Source: a virus
Strand: one strand, 5' to 3'
Virus record (IMG/VR): IMGVR_UViG_3300014886_000001
Location: 1 to 39,838 of that record
Length of the DNA: 39,838 nt
Below the pieces are notes generated by a model, which saw only the letters and a list, made by a program, of their open reading frames with translations, had not been told where the DNA came from and did no database searches. Positions 4,399-35,755 of the stretch are shown here, piece after piece (the first letter of the stretch is position 1; each line of letters starts with the position of its first letter). The position numbers and the translations under genes were made by a program.

Positions 4399-5097
4399 AT
4401 GGAGGAAAACAAACTCTCCGTCTCCGACTCTGAAGAGCTGGAGCTCGGCTCTGCAGAAGGAGAGGAGAATGTTTCCGAGGCGACCAACTTGGAGAATTCT
4501 CCTTCTCCTGCTGATACTCTTTCAGAGGCGGAGTACTTCCAGAAGTTAACTGGAAGGAAGGACATTAAAACTAAAGAAGATTTTGAGAAACACTATCAAA
4601 ATCTTAAGAAATTAGTAGGAGACCAAGCGATTGCTGAATTGAGAAAGAAAGCTGAAGCTTATGATAAGCTTCAGCAAGAGATAGAGAAGGAAGCGGATGA
4701 ATTCCTTGCCTCTGAAGAGGGGCAGGAATTTGCGAAGGAGCTTGAGGCGGATGTAGAAAAATCAGAAGTAGCCGACCTTAAAGAGAGGTTAGAGGCAATA
4801 GAGTTTCTAAAAAAACATCCAGAAGCAGAGCCGTATCTGGATGTTATTCGCTCTTTTGCCTCATATAGTGGAACCTCTCTTGAAGAGGCTTATGAGCAAC
4901 GCCTCAAAGACCTTATTGACTCCAAGTTGGAAGCCGAAAAACTCAAAAAAGAAGAACGAAATATAGGAGTGGAAAGTAAGCCTCGCTTGAGCTCCTCTAA
5001 AATAGCTAAACTTAGCCAGTTGGTGGAGCAAATCAAAAAAGCTCCTACCGATGATGCTAAGGAAGCTCTTGTTAGAGAGTGGCTCAGCGAGGAGTAA
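4399..5097 (+). CDS. Capsid scaffolding protein
   Basis: A 232-residue, strongly acidic, helix-rich protein directly upstream of the capsid gene, the standard position of a scaffold. The first 45 residues are disordered and Glu/Ser-rich. A long predicted coiled coil (about residues 60-125) follows, and the C-terminus is helical and charged, as in proteins that bind the inside of the capsid shell. Codons are more GC-rich than in neighbours, with many CTC and GAG, as also in the capsid gene; this suggests selection for high expression. It has a six-base gap to the capsid ATG. No protease is evident nearby, so scaffold is probably released rather than digested. Confidence 0.8.
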   Translation: MEENKLSVSDSEELELGSAEGEENVSEATNLENSPSPADTLSEAEYFQKLTGRKDIKTKEDFEKHYQNLKKLVGDQAIAELRKKAEAYDKLQQEIEKEADEFLASEEGQEFAKELEADVEKSEVADLKERLEAIEFLKKHPEAEPYLDVIRSFASYSGTSLEEAYEQRLKDLIDSKLEAEKLKKEERNIGVESKPRLSSSKIAKLSQLVEQIKKAPTDDAKEALVREWLSEE

Positions 5098-5103
5098 TGA
5101 ACA

Positions 5104-6021
5104 ATGGCAGCAGACAATATCTTAAGAACTTACGGAGATGAGAGCCGAAAGGAATCAGTTTTGCCTTTGGTTGAGATTTTGACAGCCAAAGAAACCTGGT
5201 TCCTTCAGAACTTAGGGAAAACGAAAGCAACTGATACGATTCACACCACACTGGTTGACACTCTAAGAACAGCTGGTTCACAAGCGGTGGAGGAAGCGGC
5301 AGATTATTCATATCTGTCCACTACCACTCCTACTAAAGTCCAGAATATAGTTGAGTTCATTGCTATTCCTATTAGGGTGTCCTTTGCTCAGAGATGGGTT
5401 GATAAGTACACCCAGCAGGATGAGTTAACCCGACAAACTACTAAAGCCCTTGTAGAATGGGGTAATGCTGCTGAGTTTGACCTTGTAAGGTCAACTTTGG
5501 TTTCAGGAGCCAGTGGTACTGCTCCTAAAATGAAGGGTATCCTTCAGGCTATCTCTAAATCTACCACCGTAACCGCTCAGACTTCTGGAACCGCTTTAGT
5601 AGCATCCATTCTTAAGGGCTTACTGAAAAACTGTTGGGATAACTCAAATGGGGAGGTACCAACTGACATTTTTGTTGGTTCCTACCTCAAGAGCGTGATT
5701 GATGGCTTTACTGCTGGGGCTACTAAATACATCCTGGCAAAGGAAGCAGCAGTGACCGACTATATTGATGTGTATGATTCAGGAGGCTTTGGTAGGGTGG
5801 CAATTCACACTCACCGCTATATTCAGCAATCCAGTGATGCTACTGGTAGAATCTTGGGTGTCAGACCAGATAAGCTAAAGATTGCTTATCTGAAGGAACC
5901 ATACATTGACACTCCAAGCAGAAGCGGTCCTTATGAGCCACGAGTAGTGATTGGTGCTCTGACATTGGAAGTTAGAAACCAAGACACTCACTTCTTTGCT
6001 TCAGGTTACTACATTGGTTAG
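5104..6021 (+). CDS. Major capsid protein, SU10/DUF5309-like
   Basis: A 305-residue HK97-fold shell protein. The order of features fits the SU10-type family: an N-terminal segment with ETWFLQNLGKTKATDTIH, then TTTPTKVQNIVEF, a central helix-rich region with AAEFDLVRSTLVSGASG, then DIFVGSYLKSVIDGF, and a C-terminal beta-rich end with VAIHTHRY, DKLKIAYLKEP and LEVRNQDTHFFASGYYIG. The length is normal for the family. The N-terminal 17 residues are duplicated in the tiny gene at 3770. GC-richer codons than flanking genes suggest very high expression. The 3' end is followed by a pseudoknot-forming RNA at 6062-6120. Confidence 0.88.
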   Translation: MAADNILRTYGDESRKESVLPLVEILTAKETWFLQNLGKTKATDTIHTTLVDTLRTAGSQAVEEAADYSYLSTTTPTKVQNIVEFIAIPIRVSFAQRWVDKYTQQDELTRQTTKALVEWGNAAEFDLVRSTLVSGASGTAPKMKGILQAISKSTTVTAQTSGTALVASILKGLLKNCWDNSNGEVPTDIFVGSYLKSVIDGFTAGATKYILAKEAAVTDYIDVYDSGGFGRVAIHTHRYIQQSSDATGRILGVRPDKLKIAYLKEPYIDTPSRSGPYEPRVVIGALTLEVRNQDTHFFASGYYIG

Positions 6022-6061: not shown

Positions 6062-6120
6062 GGCTCGCTTGTTGGGTAGGAACCCCTCGGAACCTACCCA
6101 ACGGCGAGGGGAAGCGAGCC
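6062..6120 (+). ncRNA. Compact perfect RNA pseudoknot between capsid and next gene
   Basis: Three perfect helices interlock. An outer stem pairs 6062-6070 with 6112-6120 (9 bp). An inner hairpin pairs 6071-6080 with 6093-6102 (10 bp). Loop bases CCCCTCG at 6083-6089 pair with CGAGGGG at 6105-6111 (7 bp), making an H-type pseudoknot enclosed by the outer stem. Nearly every base is paired. It is strongly GC-rich in an AT-rich genome. There is no U-run after it, and the next ATG (6124) begins after only three bases, so it is not a simple terminator. It could stabilise the 3' end of the capsid mRNA or control translation of the next gene. The family is not recognised. Confidence 0.82.
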
Positions 6121-6123
6121 AAT

Positions 6124-6453
6124 ATGATTCCAGTAGATAAAAAATTAAGAAGACAATTTATTAAACAAATAGTAGAAGATTGGAAAAAGAAAAATCCTGT
6201 AAAATACAAAGATGCTATTGAACATGCTAAATTTATGAGAAAGGCAAAAGTTAATGTTTTTGGAACCGAAAAGTATTCCCCTGCCAAAGGACAACATATT
6301 GGAGAACAATTGAGGCATATAGTTTCTTTACCAAGAGAATTATTTGATTTGTTAAACAAGGCATTAGATAATCCAAAATTTATGGAAGAAGAAGATGAAG
6401 TAACTTGGTTCTGTAAAACTTTCCCTGAATTTAAAGGACATGAAAAAACATAA
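6124..6453 (+). CDS. Conserved-looking phage protein of unknown function (109 aa)
   Basis: A lysine-rich helical protein starting three bases after the pseudoknot. Its place between the capsid and the glycosylation genes suggests a virion or head-assembly accessory role, but no family motif is recognised. The segment KAKVNVFGTEKYSPAKGQH followed by LRHIVSLPRELFDLLNKAL looks like a folded domain. Translation presumably depends on whether the upstream RNA is folded. Confidence 0.7.
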   Translation: MIPVDKKLRRQFIKQIVEDWKKKNPVKYKDAIEHAKFMRKAKVNVFGTEKYSPAKGQHIGEQLRHIVSLPRELFDLLNKALDNPKFMEEEDEVTWFCKTFPEFKGHEKT

Positions 6454-6454
6454 T

Positions 6455-8779
6455 ATGCCAAAATTAAGTTTATGCTTAATTGTTAAGGCAGATGATAAGG
6501 AAGCATTTTATCTGGATAGATGCTTGAATTCTGTTTATCAATATGTAGATGAGATTTGTATTACTATCACTGGCAAGAAAGGAGAAAGTAAAGAAGTTGA
6601 AAGAATTTGTAAAAAATATAAAGCCCGAATTTCTTACTTTAAATGGATTGATGATTTTGCTACCGCAAGAAATTTCAATTTTTCTCAAGCCAAAGGAGAA
6701 TATGTTTTCTGGCTTGACGCAGATGATGTATGTAGAGGAGCGGAGAATTTGCCTCAAGTAATTAAGAAAATGGAGGAGGAGGTAATAGATGGAATAATAA
6801 TGGATTATTTATATGATTGGGATGAATTTAAGCAATGTATAGTTAAACACCGAAAAGTAAGAATTATTAGAAATGATGGATGTTTTAAATGGCAAGGAGC
6901 AATCCATGAAGATTTAATTCCTCAACGAGAAGTTAATTCATTCTTTGTTAAAGGAATTCAGATTTTACACTTATCAGCACCTACCAGATATGAAGATTCA
7001 AAGAAAAGAAATTTAAGAATAGCCCTTAAACAATTAAATAATAATCCATCTGACCCCAAAAACTATTGGGATGTAGCAAATGCTTATTTATCGTTAGGAA
7101 ACAATAAAGAGGCGATAAAGTATTATCAGAAATTTATTAAAAGAAGCGGTTCAGAAATAGAGAGATTGACTGCCTATCATAGAATGGCAGGAGCATATAT
7201 GGCATTAGGAAAAATTGATGAGGCGATTAAATGTGAAATGAAAGTAATTGAAATAAGACCATGGTTTCCAGATGGATATTTGGGGTTAGGAGAAATTTTT
7301 CATAAACAAGGAAAATATAAACACGCAAAAGAATTTTTAATTCAAGGATTGGCAAAAGATATTCCAGAAGATGAATATATTGTGTGGAATCCACGAGATT
7401 ATGATTTCAATCCCTTAATGTTATTAGCAGATTGTTATTTCAATTTAGCCAAACCAAAAGAAGCCAAAAAATGTTTAGAAGGTTGTTTGAAAATTTATCC
7501 TAATCATCCAAGAGTAAAAACTTTAATTAAAAAATTGGATGAGGAAATAAAGAAATTAGATGAGGTTGATAAAATTGTTGAGAGAGGCAAAAATTTAAAC
7601 AAAAAAGAATTAAAGAAATTATTAGATAGTTTGCCTCATGAGTTAAAATCTCATCCTAAAATTTGTTGGTTGAGAAATATCAATTTTATTAAGAAAAAAA
7701 GTTCAGGAAGAGATTTGGTTATTTATTGTTTTCCAACTGCTGAGAACTTTAATCCTGAAATAGTAATGAAGGAAGGAAGAGGGGGGTCAGAAGAAGCAGT
7801 AGTTCATATGTCTAAAAGATTGGCTGATTTAGGATGGAATGTGACAGTATATGCCAGTTGTGGTTATAAGGTTCAAAAATTTGGAAAGGTATGGTGGAAA
7901 CCTTATTGGGAATTTAATATCAGAGATAAGCAAGATGTAGTTATTGCTTGGAGACACCCGCTATTATTTGATTATGAGGAAGTAAACGCTACTCAAAGAT
8001 ATGTTTGGCTACACGATGTGTTAAAAGAAAATGATTTTACTCCCCGTAGATTAGAAAGAATTACAAAAATATTTGCTCTTTCAAAAGCCCAAAGAGATTT
8101 GTTTCCCAATATTCCAGATGAAAAATTCTTTATTACAAAAAACGGGATAGAACCTGAACAATTTAAGAAAAAAATAGAAAGAAATCCTTATCGTTTAATT
8201 TATACTTCTTCACCAGATAGAGGATTGAAAACCCTCTTAAAAGATATTTTCCCATATATCAAAAAAGAGGTTCCAAAAGCAGAATTACATGTTTTTTATG
8301 GGTGGCATGTTTGGGACGCAATGTATAAAGATGACCCAGTAATGATGAAGGAAAAAGAAGAAATAATGAAGTTAATGAACCAACCAGGTGTAATTTATCA
8401 TGGTAGGGTTTCTCAGGAGCAGATTGTTGAGGAATATATGAAATCAAGTGTTTGGATTTATCCTACTGAGTTCTTTGAAATTTCTTGTATTTCTGCCATC
8501 AAGGCCCAAGCAGCAGGTTGTATTCCTGTAACCACAAATGTAGCAGCATTAAATGAGACAGTTCAATTTGGTTTAAAGGTAGATTCTCAGCATATTTATT
8601 CTGATATTGATGCTCAAAAAGAAATTATTGAAACAACTATTAACTTGCTTAAGAATTCTCCAGCCGAGAAAGAAAGAGAACCAATGAAAAAATGGGCATT
8701 AAGAGAATATGATTGGGATAAAATAGCAAGAGATTGGGATAAATTGTTCAAAAAAAATGGAAAAGGGAATCGCACTTAA
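6455..8779 (+). CDS. Bifunctional glycosyltransferase: GT2, TPR and GT4-like domains
   Basis: A 774-residue fusion. Residues 1 to about 190 form a GT-A domain of family GT2 with SLCLIVK at the start and the metal-binding WLDADD at 86-91. About 195-370 contains TPR repeats (for example NYWDVANAYLSLGNNKEAIKY). About 425-774 is a GT-B/GT4-like domain with a GGSEE motif near its start and EFFEISCISAIKAQAAG toward the C-terminus, where the nucleotide-sugar ligand is bound. It would transfer sugars to a protein or glycan acceptor in the host cytoplasm. The start at 6455 is preferred over 6440 because it lies just after the previous stop. It heads a five-gene sugar-modification cassette inside the virion block. 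Confidence 0.85.
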   Translation: MPKLSLCLIVKADDKEAFYLDRCLNSVYQYVDEICITITGKKGESKEVERICKKYKARISYFKWIDDFATARNFNFSQAKGEYVFWLDADDVCRGAENLPQVIKKMEEEVIDGIIMDYLYDWDEFKQCIVKHRKVRIIRNDGCFKWQGAIHEDLIPQREVNSFFVKGIQILHLSAPTRYEDSKKRNLRIALKQLNNNPSDPKNYWDVANAYLSLGNNKEAIKYYQKFIKRSGSEIERLTAYHRMAGAYMALGKIDEAIKCEMKVIEIRPWFPDGYLGLGEIFHKQGKYKHAKEFLIQGLAKDIPEDEYIVWNPRDYDFNPLMLLADCYFNLAKPKEAKKCLEGCLKIYPNHPRVKTLIKKLDEEIKKLDEVDKIVERGKNLNKKELKKLLDSLPHELKSHPKICWLRNINFIKKKSSGRDLVIYCFPTAENFNPEIVMKEGRGGSEEAVVHMSKRLADLGWNVTVYASCGYKVQKFGKVWWKPYWEFNIRDKQDVVIAWRHPLLFDYEEVNATQRYVWLHDVLKENDFTPRRLERITKIFALSKAQRDLFPNIPDEKFFITKNGIEPEQFKKKIERNPYRLIYTSSPDRGLKTLLKDIFPYIKKEVPKAELHVFYGWHVWDAMYKDDPVMMKEKEEIMKLMNQPGVIYHGRVSQEQIVEEYMKSSVWIYPTEFFEISCISAIKAQAAGCIPVTTNVAALNETVQFGLKVDSQHIYSDIDAQKEIIETTINLLKNSPAEKEREPMKKWALREYDWDKIARDWDKLFKKNGKGNRT

Positions 8780-23259: not shown

Positions 23260-23478
23260 ATGGATAAAAAATTATTGCTTCTTAAAAGAAAGGAATTAAG
23301 AAGATTAAAAAAAGAAATTGAAAAACTGAAAAGAAGTAGAGACCCTTGTAAGAAAGAAAAAATCAATGAATTGAGAAAAAGAATGGTAAGAATTTTAAGA
23401 GAAATGTTAGAGATGTTTCCACCGTTTGATAGAAGTACAATTAAAGAAAACAATGGATTTAAGGAGGTGAAAAAATGA
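23260..23478 (+). CDS. Lys/Arg-rich coiled-coil protein (72 aa)
   Basis: A perfect AAGGAGGTGAT lies just before the ATG. The product is a highly charged helix (KRKELRRLKKEIEKLKR, then INELRKRMVRILREMLEMF) with a short C-terminal tail. The stop overlaps the ATG of the next gene (ATGA), whose Shine-Dalgarno lies in this gene's final codons. Role unknown; possibly a partner of the secreted protease that follows. Confidence 0.7.
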   Translation: MDKKLLLLKRKELRRLKKEIEKLKRSRDPCKKEKINELRKRMVRILREMLEMFPPFDRSTIKENNGFKEVKK

Positions 23479-24029
23479 GAGGGTTATTGGTTTTAATGGG
23501 GATGGGAGTTTTCCTTTTCTCATTTGCTTTTGCTGGTTTTATTGATAATTTTGTTCCTAAAATTACAAGACAAGTAGTAAGAGTTTATAGTTATAAAAAG
23601 TTAGGAGGCGGGATAATTATTCAGAATTATTATGTTCTTTCAGTGGCTCATTTAGCAAATGCGATGATTTTTGTGAATGGATTACCTAGTGAGATAAAGA
23701 AACTAGATGATGATTTGATGTATCTTCAAGTTCCTTATAATTTCAATAGAAAGGTAAAATTTGCTAAAGAGGTTCATTTATTAGAAAAAGTTTATATTGT
23801 TGGCTATCCAACAGGTAAGAAAATGGTAATTCCTGCTACTATTTGTGGAATTGATAACTATGTTCTCTATTTAGACGCTAAAGTGATTGGAGGAATGTCT
23901 GGAGGAGGGATATTTAATGAGAAAGGCGAATTGGTTGGTATAGTTCACGGTGGAAAAGGTTATCCTGAACAAATTTTAGTTGCTTCTTCTTTTGTGGCTA
24001 TTAAGAGGTTCCTCGGTATTGAGGAATAA
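23475..24029 (+). CDS. Secreted trypsin-like serine protease
   Basis: 184 residues with a clear signal peptide (residues 1-20, LLVLMGMGVFLFSFAFA). The chymotrypsin/HtrA-fold triad is visible: His59 in LSVAHLAN, Asp80 in DDDLMYLQV and Ser142 in GGMSGGG, followed by the usual LVGIVHGG strand. It is short and has no PDZ domain. A Shine-Dalgarno AAGGAGGTGA precedes the ATG. It would act outside the membrane, perhaps on envelope proteins at lysis or on superinfecting virions. A strong terminator follows immediately. Confidence 0.83.
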   Translation: MRGLLVLMGMGVFLFSFAFAGFIDNFVPKITRQVVRVYSYKKLGGGIIIQNYYVLSVAHLANAMIFVNGLPSEIKKLDDDLMYLQVPYNFNRKVKFAKEVHLLEKVYIVGYPTGKKMVIPATICGIDNYVLYLDAKVIGGMSGGGIFNEKGELVGIVHGGKGYPEQILVASSFVAIKRFLGIEE

Positions 24030-24030
24030 A

Positions 24031-24057
24031 GGGGAGGCTCCCTCCCCTCTTTTTTTC
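24031..24057 (+). terminator. Strong intrinsic terminator
   Basis: GGGGAGG at 24031-24037 pairs with CCTCCCC at 24041-24047 across a 3-nt loop, followed by a T-rich tract to about 24057. It begins right after the protease stop and ends just before the next promoter. Confidence 0.88.
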
Positions 24058-35509: not shown

Positions 35510-35575
35510 TTTAGCCCCTCGTCTTCCCCCTCTTCTCCCGCTTCTGCGAGGAAAAGAGGGAAGCCAGAAGCCAAA
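35510..35575 (-). promoter_or_regulatory. Intergenic hairpin copy 1, upstream of a box
   Basis: On the minus strand an outer stem (35569-35575 with 35510-35516) encloses a long inner stem (about 35551-35563 with 35523-35535, 13 pairs with some G-U). It begins right after the TAG of the 35576 gene and is followed by the box variant. It shares flanks and layout with copy 2 at 35801-35849. Confidence 0.7.
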
Positions 35576-35755
35576 CTAATTACTCATCATTTCTTCGATT
35601 ACTGGTTTAACTATTGTTTGAGCGATAAATTGTAGATAGAGAATTTGTAGGTTGTCGTATGATAACTCGTCAATTTCTAATCCGTGTTTATTAAGCCAAG
35701 CCTCAAAGTTTCTATCTGCCAGTATTATTTCTAAATTTATTTCTTCTTTTGTCAT
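35576..35755 (-). CDS. Small acidic protein (59 aa)
   Basis: ATG 35755 is chosen over TTG 35764 because it follows the AAAACC context seen at sister genes. MTKEEINLEIILADRNFEAWL and a helical C-terminus (LQFIAQTIVKPVIEEMMSN). Unknown function. Confidence 0.68.
   Translation of the reverse strand: MTKEEINLEIILADRNFEAWLNKHGLEIDELSYDNLQILYLQFIAQTIVKPVIEEMMSN

Follow-up and report, generated by a model that had tools for sequence, protein, structure and literature searches.

The window, i.e. the whole 39.8-kb record of an uncultivated virus of bacteria, carries portal and capsid genes, with the terminase genes at the opposite end. A nested pseudoknot was distinguished between the major capsid gene and the next gene (Table 1). 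The 109-aa product of that gene is represented by an alignment of 22 sequences, and no family reached its curated cut-off in searches with this protein. Its AlphaFold prediction (pLDDT 75) is mostly helical; a fold search gave no PDB match and no recognisable RNA-binding fold was found. The search for relatives by this downstream protein yielded none, or insufficient conservation. Region 6440-8779 encodes a 779-aa protein with two glycosyltransferase-like parts; phage MW202524 has an annotated gene in a similar position after its capsid gene. Elsewhere, within 23475-24048, a trypsin-like peptidase gene with an unusually strong Shine-Dalgarno sequence is followed by a good terminator-like site with a U-run (24030-24048), one of several such sites in the window.

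Table 1. Features in and around the capsid-downstream pseudoknot (window coordinates).
Feature	Coordinates	Strand	Description
Major capsid gene, the element's constant neighbour on the 5′ side	5104..6021	+	phrog_1328 major head protein, E 1.8e-37
Nested pseudoknot A B C B′ C′ A′	6062..6120	+	direct reading; shuffles; about 55 covarying relatives
Helix A, 5′ strand GGCTCGCTT	6062..6070	+	9 bp with 6112-6120, perfect
Helix B, 5′ strand GTTGGGTAGG	6071..6080	+	10 bp with 6093-6102, perfect
Helix C, 5′ strand CCCCTCG, inside the loop of B	6083..6089	+	7 bp with 6105-6111, perfect
Helix B, 3′ strand CCTACCCAAC	6093..6102	+	direct reading
Helix C, 3′ strand CGAGGGG	6105..6111	+	purine-rich GAGGGG inside
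Helix A, 3′ strand AAGCGAGCC	6112..6120	+	ends 3 nt before the next ATG
Next gene, 109-aa protein, function not assigned	6124..6453	+	family kept in most relatives behind the element

The initial annotation had described three helices of 9, 10 and 7 bp arranged as A B C B′ C′ A′, ending three bases before an ATG and lacking a U-run. Direct reading reproduced the helices exactly to the base and confirmed both the position of the end (the next ATG being 6124) and the absence of the U-run. Fifty-two of the 59 bases are paired, and the loops are short (L1 AA, L2 GAA, L3 GG). The GAGGGG motif within the 3′ strand of helix C is a possible Shine-Dalgarno sequence of the next gene; the duplex energy upstream of ATG 6124 is -8.0 kcal/mol. 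A descriptor of the layout scored 63.5 for this element, whereas no score above 44.0 was reached when the intergenic region was dinucleotide-shuffled 1500 times, so the pseudoknot is not a product of chance. The nested part (A and B alone) gave a folding z of -3.1.

Recurrence, covariation and shape of the fold

Searches of IMG/VR with the capsid protein yielded 15, then 68 and then 80 loci, many of which overlap. Behind the capsid stop codon of the relatives the same layout recurs with different letters. Scanning of all loci (936 kb per strand) gave 80 plus-strand matches, corresponding to 54 or 55 distinct sequences depending on the threshold, i.e. about 55 distinct relatives; the match at 6062-6120 is the only one on the plus strand of the window. 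Each match immediately follows the capsid gene or, where an HNH gene or an intron interrupts that gene (L008, L012, L014, L045), its last exon. The exceptions are second copies in L047 (L098 is the same contig) and L148, each following an HNH gene that is inserted downstream of the capsid gene. Minus-strand matches are the plus-strand elements read in reverse complement, apart from one in the window (35521-35576, score 50.5), which is weaker, lies outside the capsid region and may be due to chance.

In about ten further loci the version is weaker or differs slightly (e.g. L034, L041, L046, L085, L090, L145). The distant capsid relatives L017, L018, L019, L020 and L022 carry no such pseudoknot, a DNA search detected no near-identical relatives among annotated phages, and none were found in the bacterial genomes searched with the capsid. 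By eye, differently ordered or A-less pseudoknots could be discerned in the corresponding place in L135 (about 30-95 past the capsid stop codon), L063 and L146. Insertions that look HNH-containing interrupt the capsid gene in L008, L009, L012, L014 and L045, and within the interrupted gene of L014 a group I intron was recognised by Rfam (4515-4700).

Covariation in homologous capsid-downstream regions, proposed as a check in the initial annotation, was analysed and strongly supported all three helices. All 19 core pairs are standard in each of the 34 parsed elements, with 4-6 pair types per pair; this parse itself selects for pairing, and independent control is provided by the shuffles and by the lack of matches in the rest of the scanned DNA. 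When 3′ strands were exchanged between elements, pairing fell to 53% (sd 2.3, maximum of 500: 62.5%). In the close pair L026/L157, helix B shows a C-G to U-A exchange (TATCGGG/CCCGATA versus TATTGGG/CCCAATA) as well as one U-A to U-G change. Symmetric scoring left 60 G-T against 19 A-C combinations (45 against 8 inside helices), and this excess indicates that it is the sense RNA that folds and is under selection. The three helices, their strand and their fixed place are well supported by sequence comparison.

Across the family, helix A comprises 5-11 bp, B 7-12 bp and C 7-10 bp (mode 9), within a total length of about 55-65 nt. L1 is often 5 nt, L2 often 3 nt and L3 0-2 nt, and the junctions to A are mostly 0-2 nt. 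In a classical coaxial H-type pseudoknot L3 spans the shallow groove of stem 1; with B of 7-12 bp, an L3 of 0-2 nt is too short for this in nearly all elements. The dimensions were examined by a coarse rigid-helix search, which ignores linker paths and is a test of feasibility rather than a structure. The architectures of L001, L074 and L132 accommodated all three helices unstrained, those of the window and L062 did so with one or two end pairs frayed, and models with shortened loops failed. In most fits the angle between helices C and B is about 80-100 degrees, and A is often roughly in line with B. A switch with mutually exclusive B and C, suspected from the short L3, was rejected, as the coarse model accommodates all three helices, or does so with 1-bp fraying.

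Genomic position and exchange with terminators

The distance from the capsid stop codon to helix A has a median of 12 nt (IQR 5-28; range -5 to 60 nt). On the other side, the gap between A′ and the next ATG has a median of +1 nt and falls within -8 to +3 in 33 of 53 elements. In the remaining 20 the ATG is 9-37 nt downstream of A′; a gate that works by covering the start codon is therefore not universal.

The usual next gene in the relatives encodes a member of a family of about 105 aa, with no match above the curated cut-off. In other loci it encodes a GroEL-like chaperonin (L132, L149, L148), an HNH protein (L014, L048, L073) or a Zn-ribbon-like protein of 72 aa (L033, L040); these assignments come from reading the translations, except that the HNH of L073 has a Pfam match. 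Because the downstream gene varies, the capsid gene is the constant partner, and a tie of the element to the 109-aa gene was ruled out. In L047 and L148, where an HNH-type gene follows the capsid gene, one pseudoknot precedes the HNH gene and another precedes the gene after it; these flanking pseudoknots differ from each other (L047 3943-4446, L148 3475-4079). By eye, a GroEL-like gene immediately follows the capsid gene and pseudoknot in L132 (3482-4850) and L149 (3480-4827); in L148 it lies behind 4079. In L048 an HNH-type gene is located between the pseudoknot and the apparent body of a GroEL-like gene.

Loci without the pseudoknot carry at this spot either a terminator with a U-run (e.g. 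L024, L086, L113, L131), a U-less hairpin, often with a UUCG loop, or another structure. These states were mapped on a capsid tree with 87 members, of which 54 have the pseudoknot, 15 a terminator, 9 a hairpin and 9 another structure; the terminator, hairpin and other labels and those of the roughly ten weaker pseudoknots were assigned partly by eye. In this analysis by a quick method the terminator state changes nine times on the tree, and eight of these changes are forced by well-supported branches. The tree indicates that pseudoknot and intrinsic terminator have replaced each other at least eight times, on every occasion at this site. This suggests that they share a task, either at the end of the capsid mRNA or in its separation from the next gene. 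Behind the terminators of L024, L086, L088 and L131, -10-like sequences often occur very near the next ATG; this observation, of weak statistics, suggests near-leaderless transcripts there.

Proposed function and alternative explanations

The capsid protein is a very abundant phage product, needed in far greater amounts than other late proteins; to our knowledge, few cases have been described of how phages raise its output inside one operon. The reading that we prefer, with moderate confidence, is that the element is a cis-acting structured RNA in the sense transcript, which marks an expression boundary after the capsid gene. A and B would stack roughly end to end, while helix C, in which the loop of B pairs with the segment linking B′ to A′, would cross at about a right angle and clasp the junction. 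Such a compact clasp could be a roadblock to 3′-to-5′ nucleases and give the capsid message a stable 3′ boundary, and A′, touching or covering the next start codon, could lower initiation on the next gene. One transcript would then yield much capsid and little of the following product. Of the two functions suggested in the initial annotation, a nuclease-blocking 3′ end and a translation gate, each gains some backing from the comparison. The constancy of the capsid gene as neighbour and the replacement by terminators favour a role as mRNA end or boundary. Two points count against it: a simple hairpin would suffice as a 3′ block, which leaves the need for a pseudoknot unexplained, and the exchange with terminators could instead mean that the element itself terminates transcription. 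A more specific proposal, which we put forward only tentatively, is that the element represents a new class of mechanically strong RNA clasps that block nucleases by shape alone, as a phage counterpart of viral exonuclease-resistant RNAs, and thereby set the capsid ratio of the operon.

In 33 of the 53 elements the 3′ strand adjoins or overlaps the start codon of the next gene, which favours a translation gate. In a pure gate or operator, C′ and A′ would bury the ribosome site and start codon of the next gene, with a protein perhaps relieving or stabilising this block, as in the operators of T4 gene 32 or rpsO. The presence of a pseudoknot before each downstream gene in the two loci with inserted HNH genes agrees with this, as do the Shine-Dalgarno-like purines in some C′ strands, although Shine-Dalgarno matches after the element are little above those at random positions. 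A translational operator would be constantly paired with one regulated gene, whereas the element keeps its place behind the capsid gene while the downstream genes are of at least four kinds. It is, moreover, replaced by terminators, and its helices vary too much in sequence for ordinary sequence-specific binding. We consider a pure gate rather unlikely.

The element might also be a U-less transcription terminator or strong pause, perhaps acting with Rho or a phage factor. The intrinsic terminators that about 15 relatives have in its place, with their repeated exchanges, speak for this. However, an intrinsic terminator consists of a GC-rich hairpin and a U-run, whereas the element is followed by AATATGATT and was absent from the terminator scan, and terminator-like sites of the normal type exist elsewhere in the window. 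The element mostly ends at the next start codon, leaving little space for a new promoter, and in a weak test on a small sample the -10-like score before the next ATG was 4.0, compared with 4.9 behind terminators. Termination by the element itself is accordingly improbable in our view.

Less probable still is a 5′-to-3′ exonuclease-resistant RNA that would protect the downstream message in the manner of flaviviral xrRNAs. A pseudoknot defined by shape, with variable sequence and narrow loop lengths, would fit such a role, but its topology is unlike that of any xrRNA known to us, and the element is not tied to any downstream RNA in need of protection.

Pseudoknots just behind stop codons can act in recoding, and in the window frame -1 stays open across the element. 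A stop-codon readthrough or frameshift signal producing a capsid extension is nevertheless extremely improbable, being disfavoured by the frame counts (each of the three frames is open in just 14-16 of 49 loci, rates like those of chance) and by the spread of the stop-to-A gap. Equally remote is a DNA-level signal (a cruciform, packaging or recombination site), which would accord with inverted repeats readable on both strands and is rejected by the G-T over A-C asymmetry between strands.

Comparison with known RNA elements

No Rfam 15 family, including RF03012, the ribozymes and the riboswitches, matched the window at its gathering score. Among 20 relatives, Rfam recognised no pseudoknot and only the group I intron of L014. 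With the threshold relaxed to E 10, RF03012 remained unmatched and only a weak snoR9 match (E 1.1) appeared, on the other strand. The layout had been thought to resemble no known ribozyme or riboswitch, which is consistent with the absence of an Rfam match, and both classes were rejected on this basis. The fold was not described in the open papers searched, and an earlier report may exist among subscription papers or preprints.

The T-phi terminator of T7 lies behind gene 10. Such capsid-downstream intrinsic terminators, including those of L024, L086, L113 and L131, occupy the same genomic place as the element, and in the relatives the two have been exchanged in evolution. The element differs from them in having no U-run, in being a pseudoknot rather than a hairpin, and in usually leaving no promoter space behind it.

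The head protein of phage Mu is gpT. By its name, the Mu-gpT-DE RNA motif (RF03012; PMC7657543) is likewise a candidate RNA near a phage head-protein gene, but the window element did not match it even at E values up to 10.

The translational operator of T4 gene 32 is, like our element, a phage mRNA pseudoknot upstream of a start codon (PMC3014915). The gene 32 pseudoknot lies 67 nt upstream, has coaxial stems and is bound up with a known protein (PMC3014915), whereas the capsid-downstream element has an enclosing stem and a near-zero L3 and usually touches the ATG. Hairpins that cover the ribosome-binding sites of homing endonuclease genes in T4-like phages (PMC2988022) are also stable structures at phage start sites, and the element too occurs before HNH genes. 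Those structures, however, are simple hairpins associated with late promoters and are not linked to the capsid gene (PMC2988022).

Stable structures between operon genes that set expression ratios are represented by SRPS (PMC8219983, PMC4423207). SRPS are stable RNA structures 3′ of a highly needed operon gene and are proposed to set its ratio to the next gene. The phage element is similarly a stable structure between two genes of which the first has an abundant product; it differs in forming a conserved family of nested three-helix pseudoknots, recognised here by sequence comparison. It is best read as a new RNA family, absent from the libraries searched, that belongs to a known general kind (intercistronic cis-acting RNA) and has an unusual topology: a small, strongly covarying fold with almost no third loop, interchangeable with terminators in evolution and short enough for direct assays.
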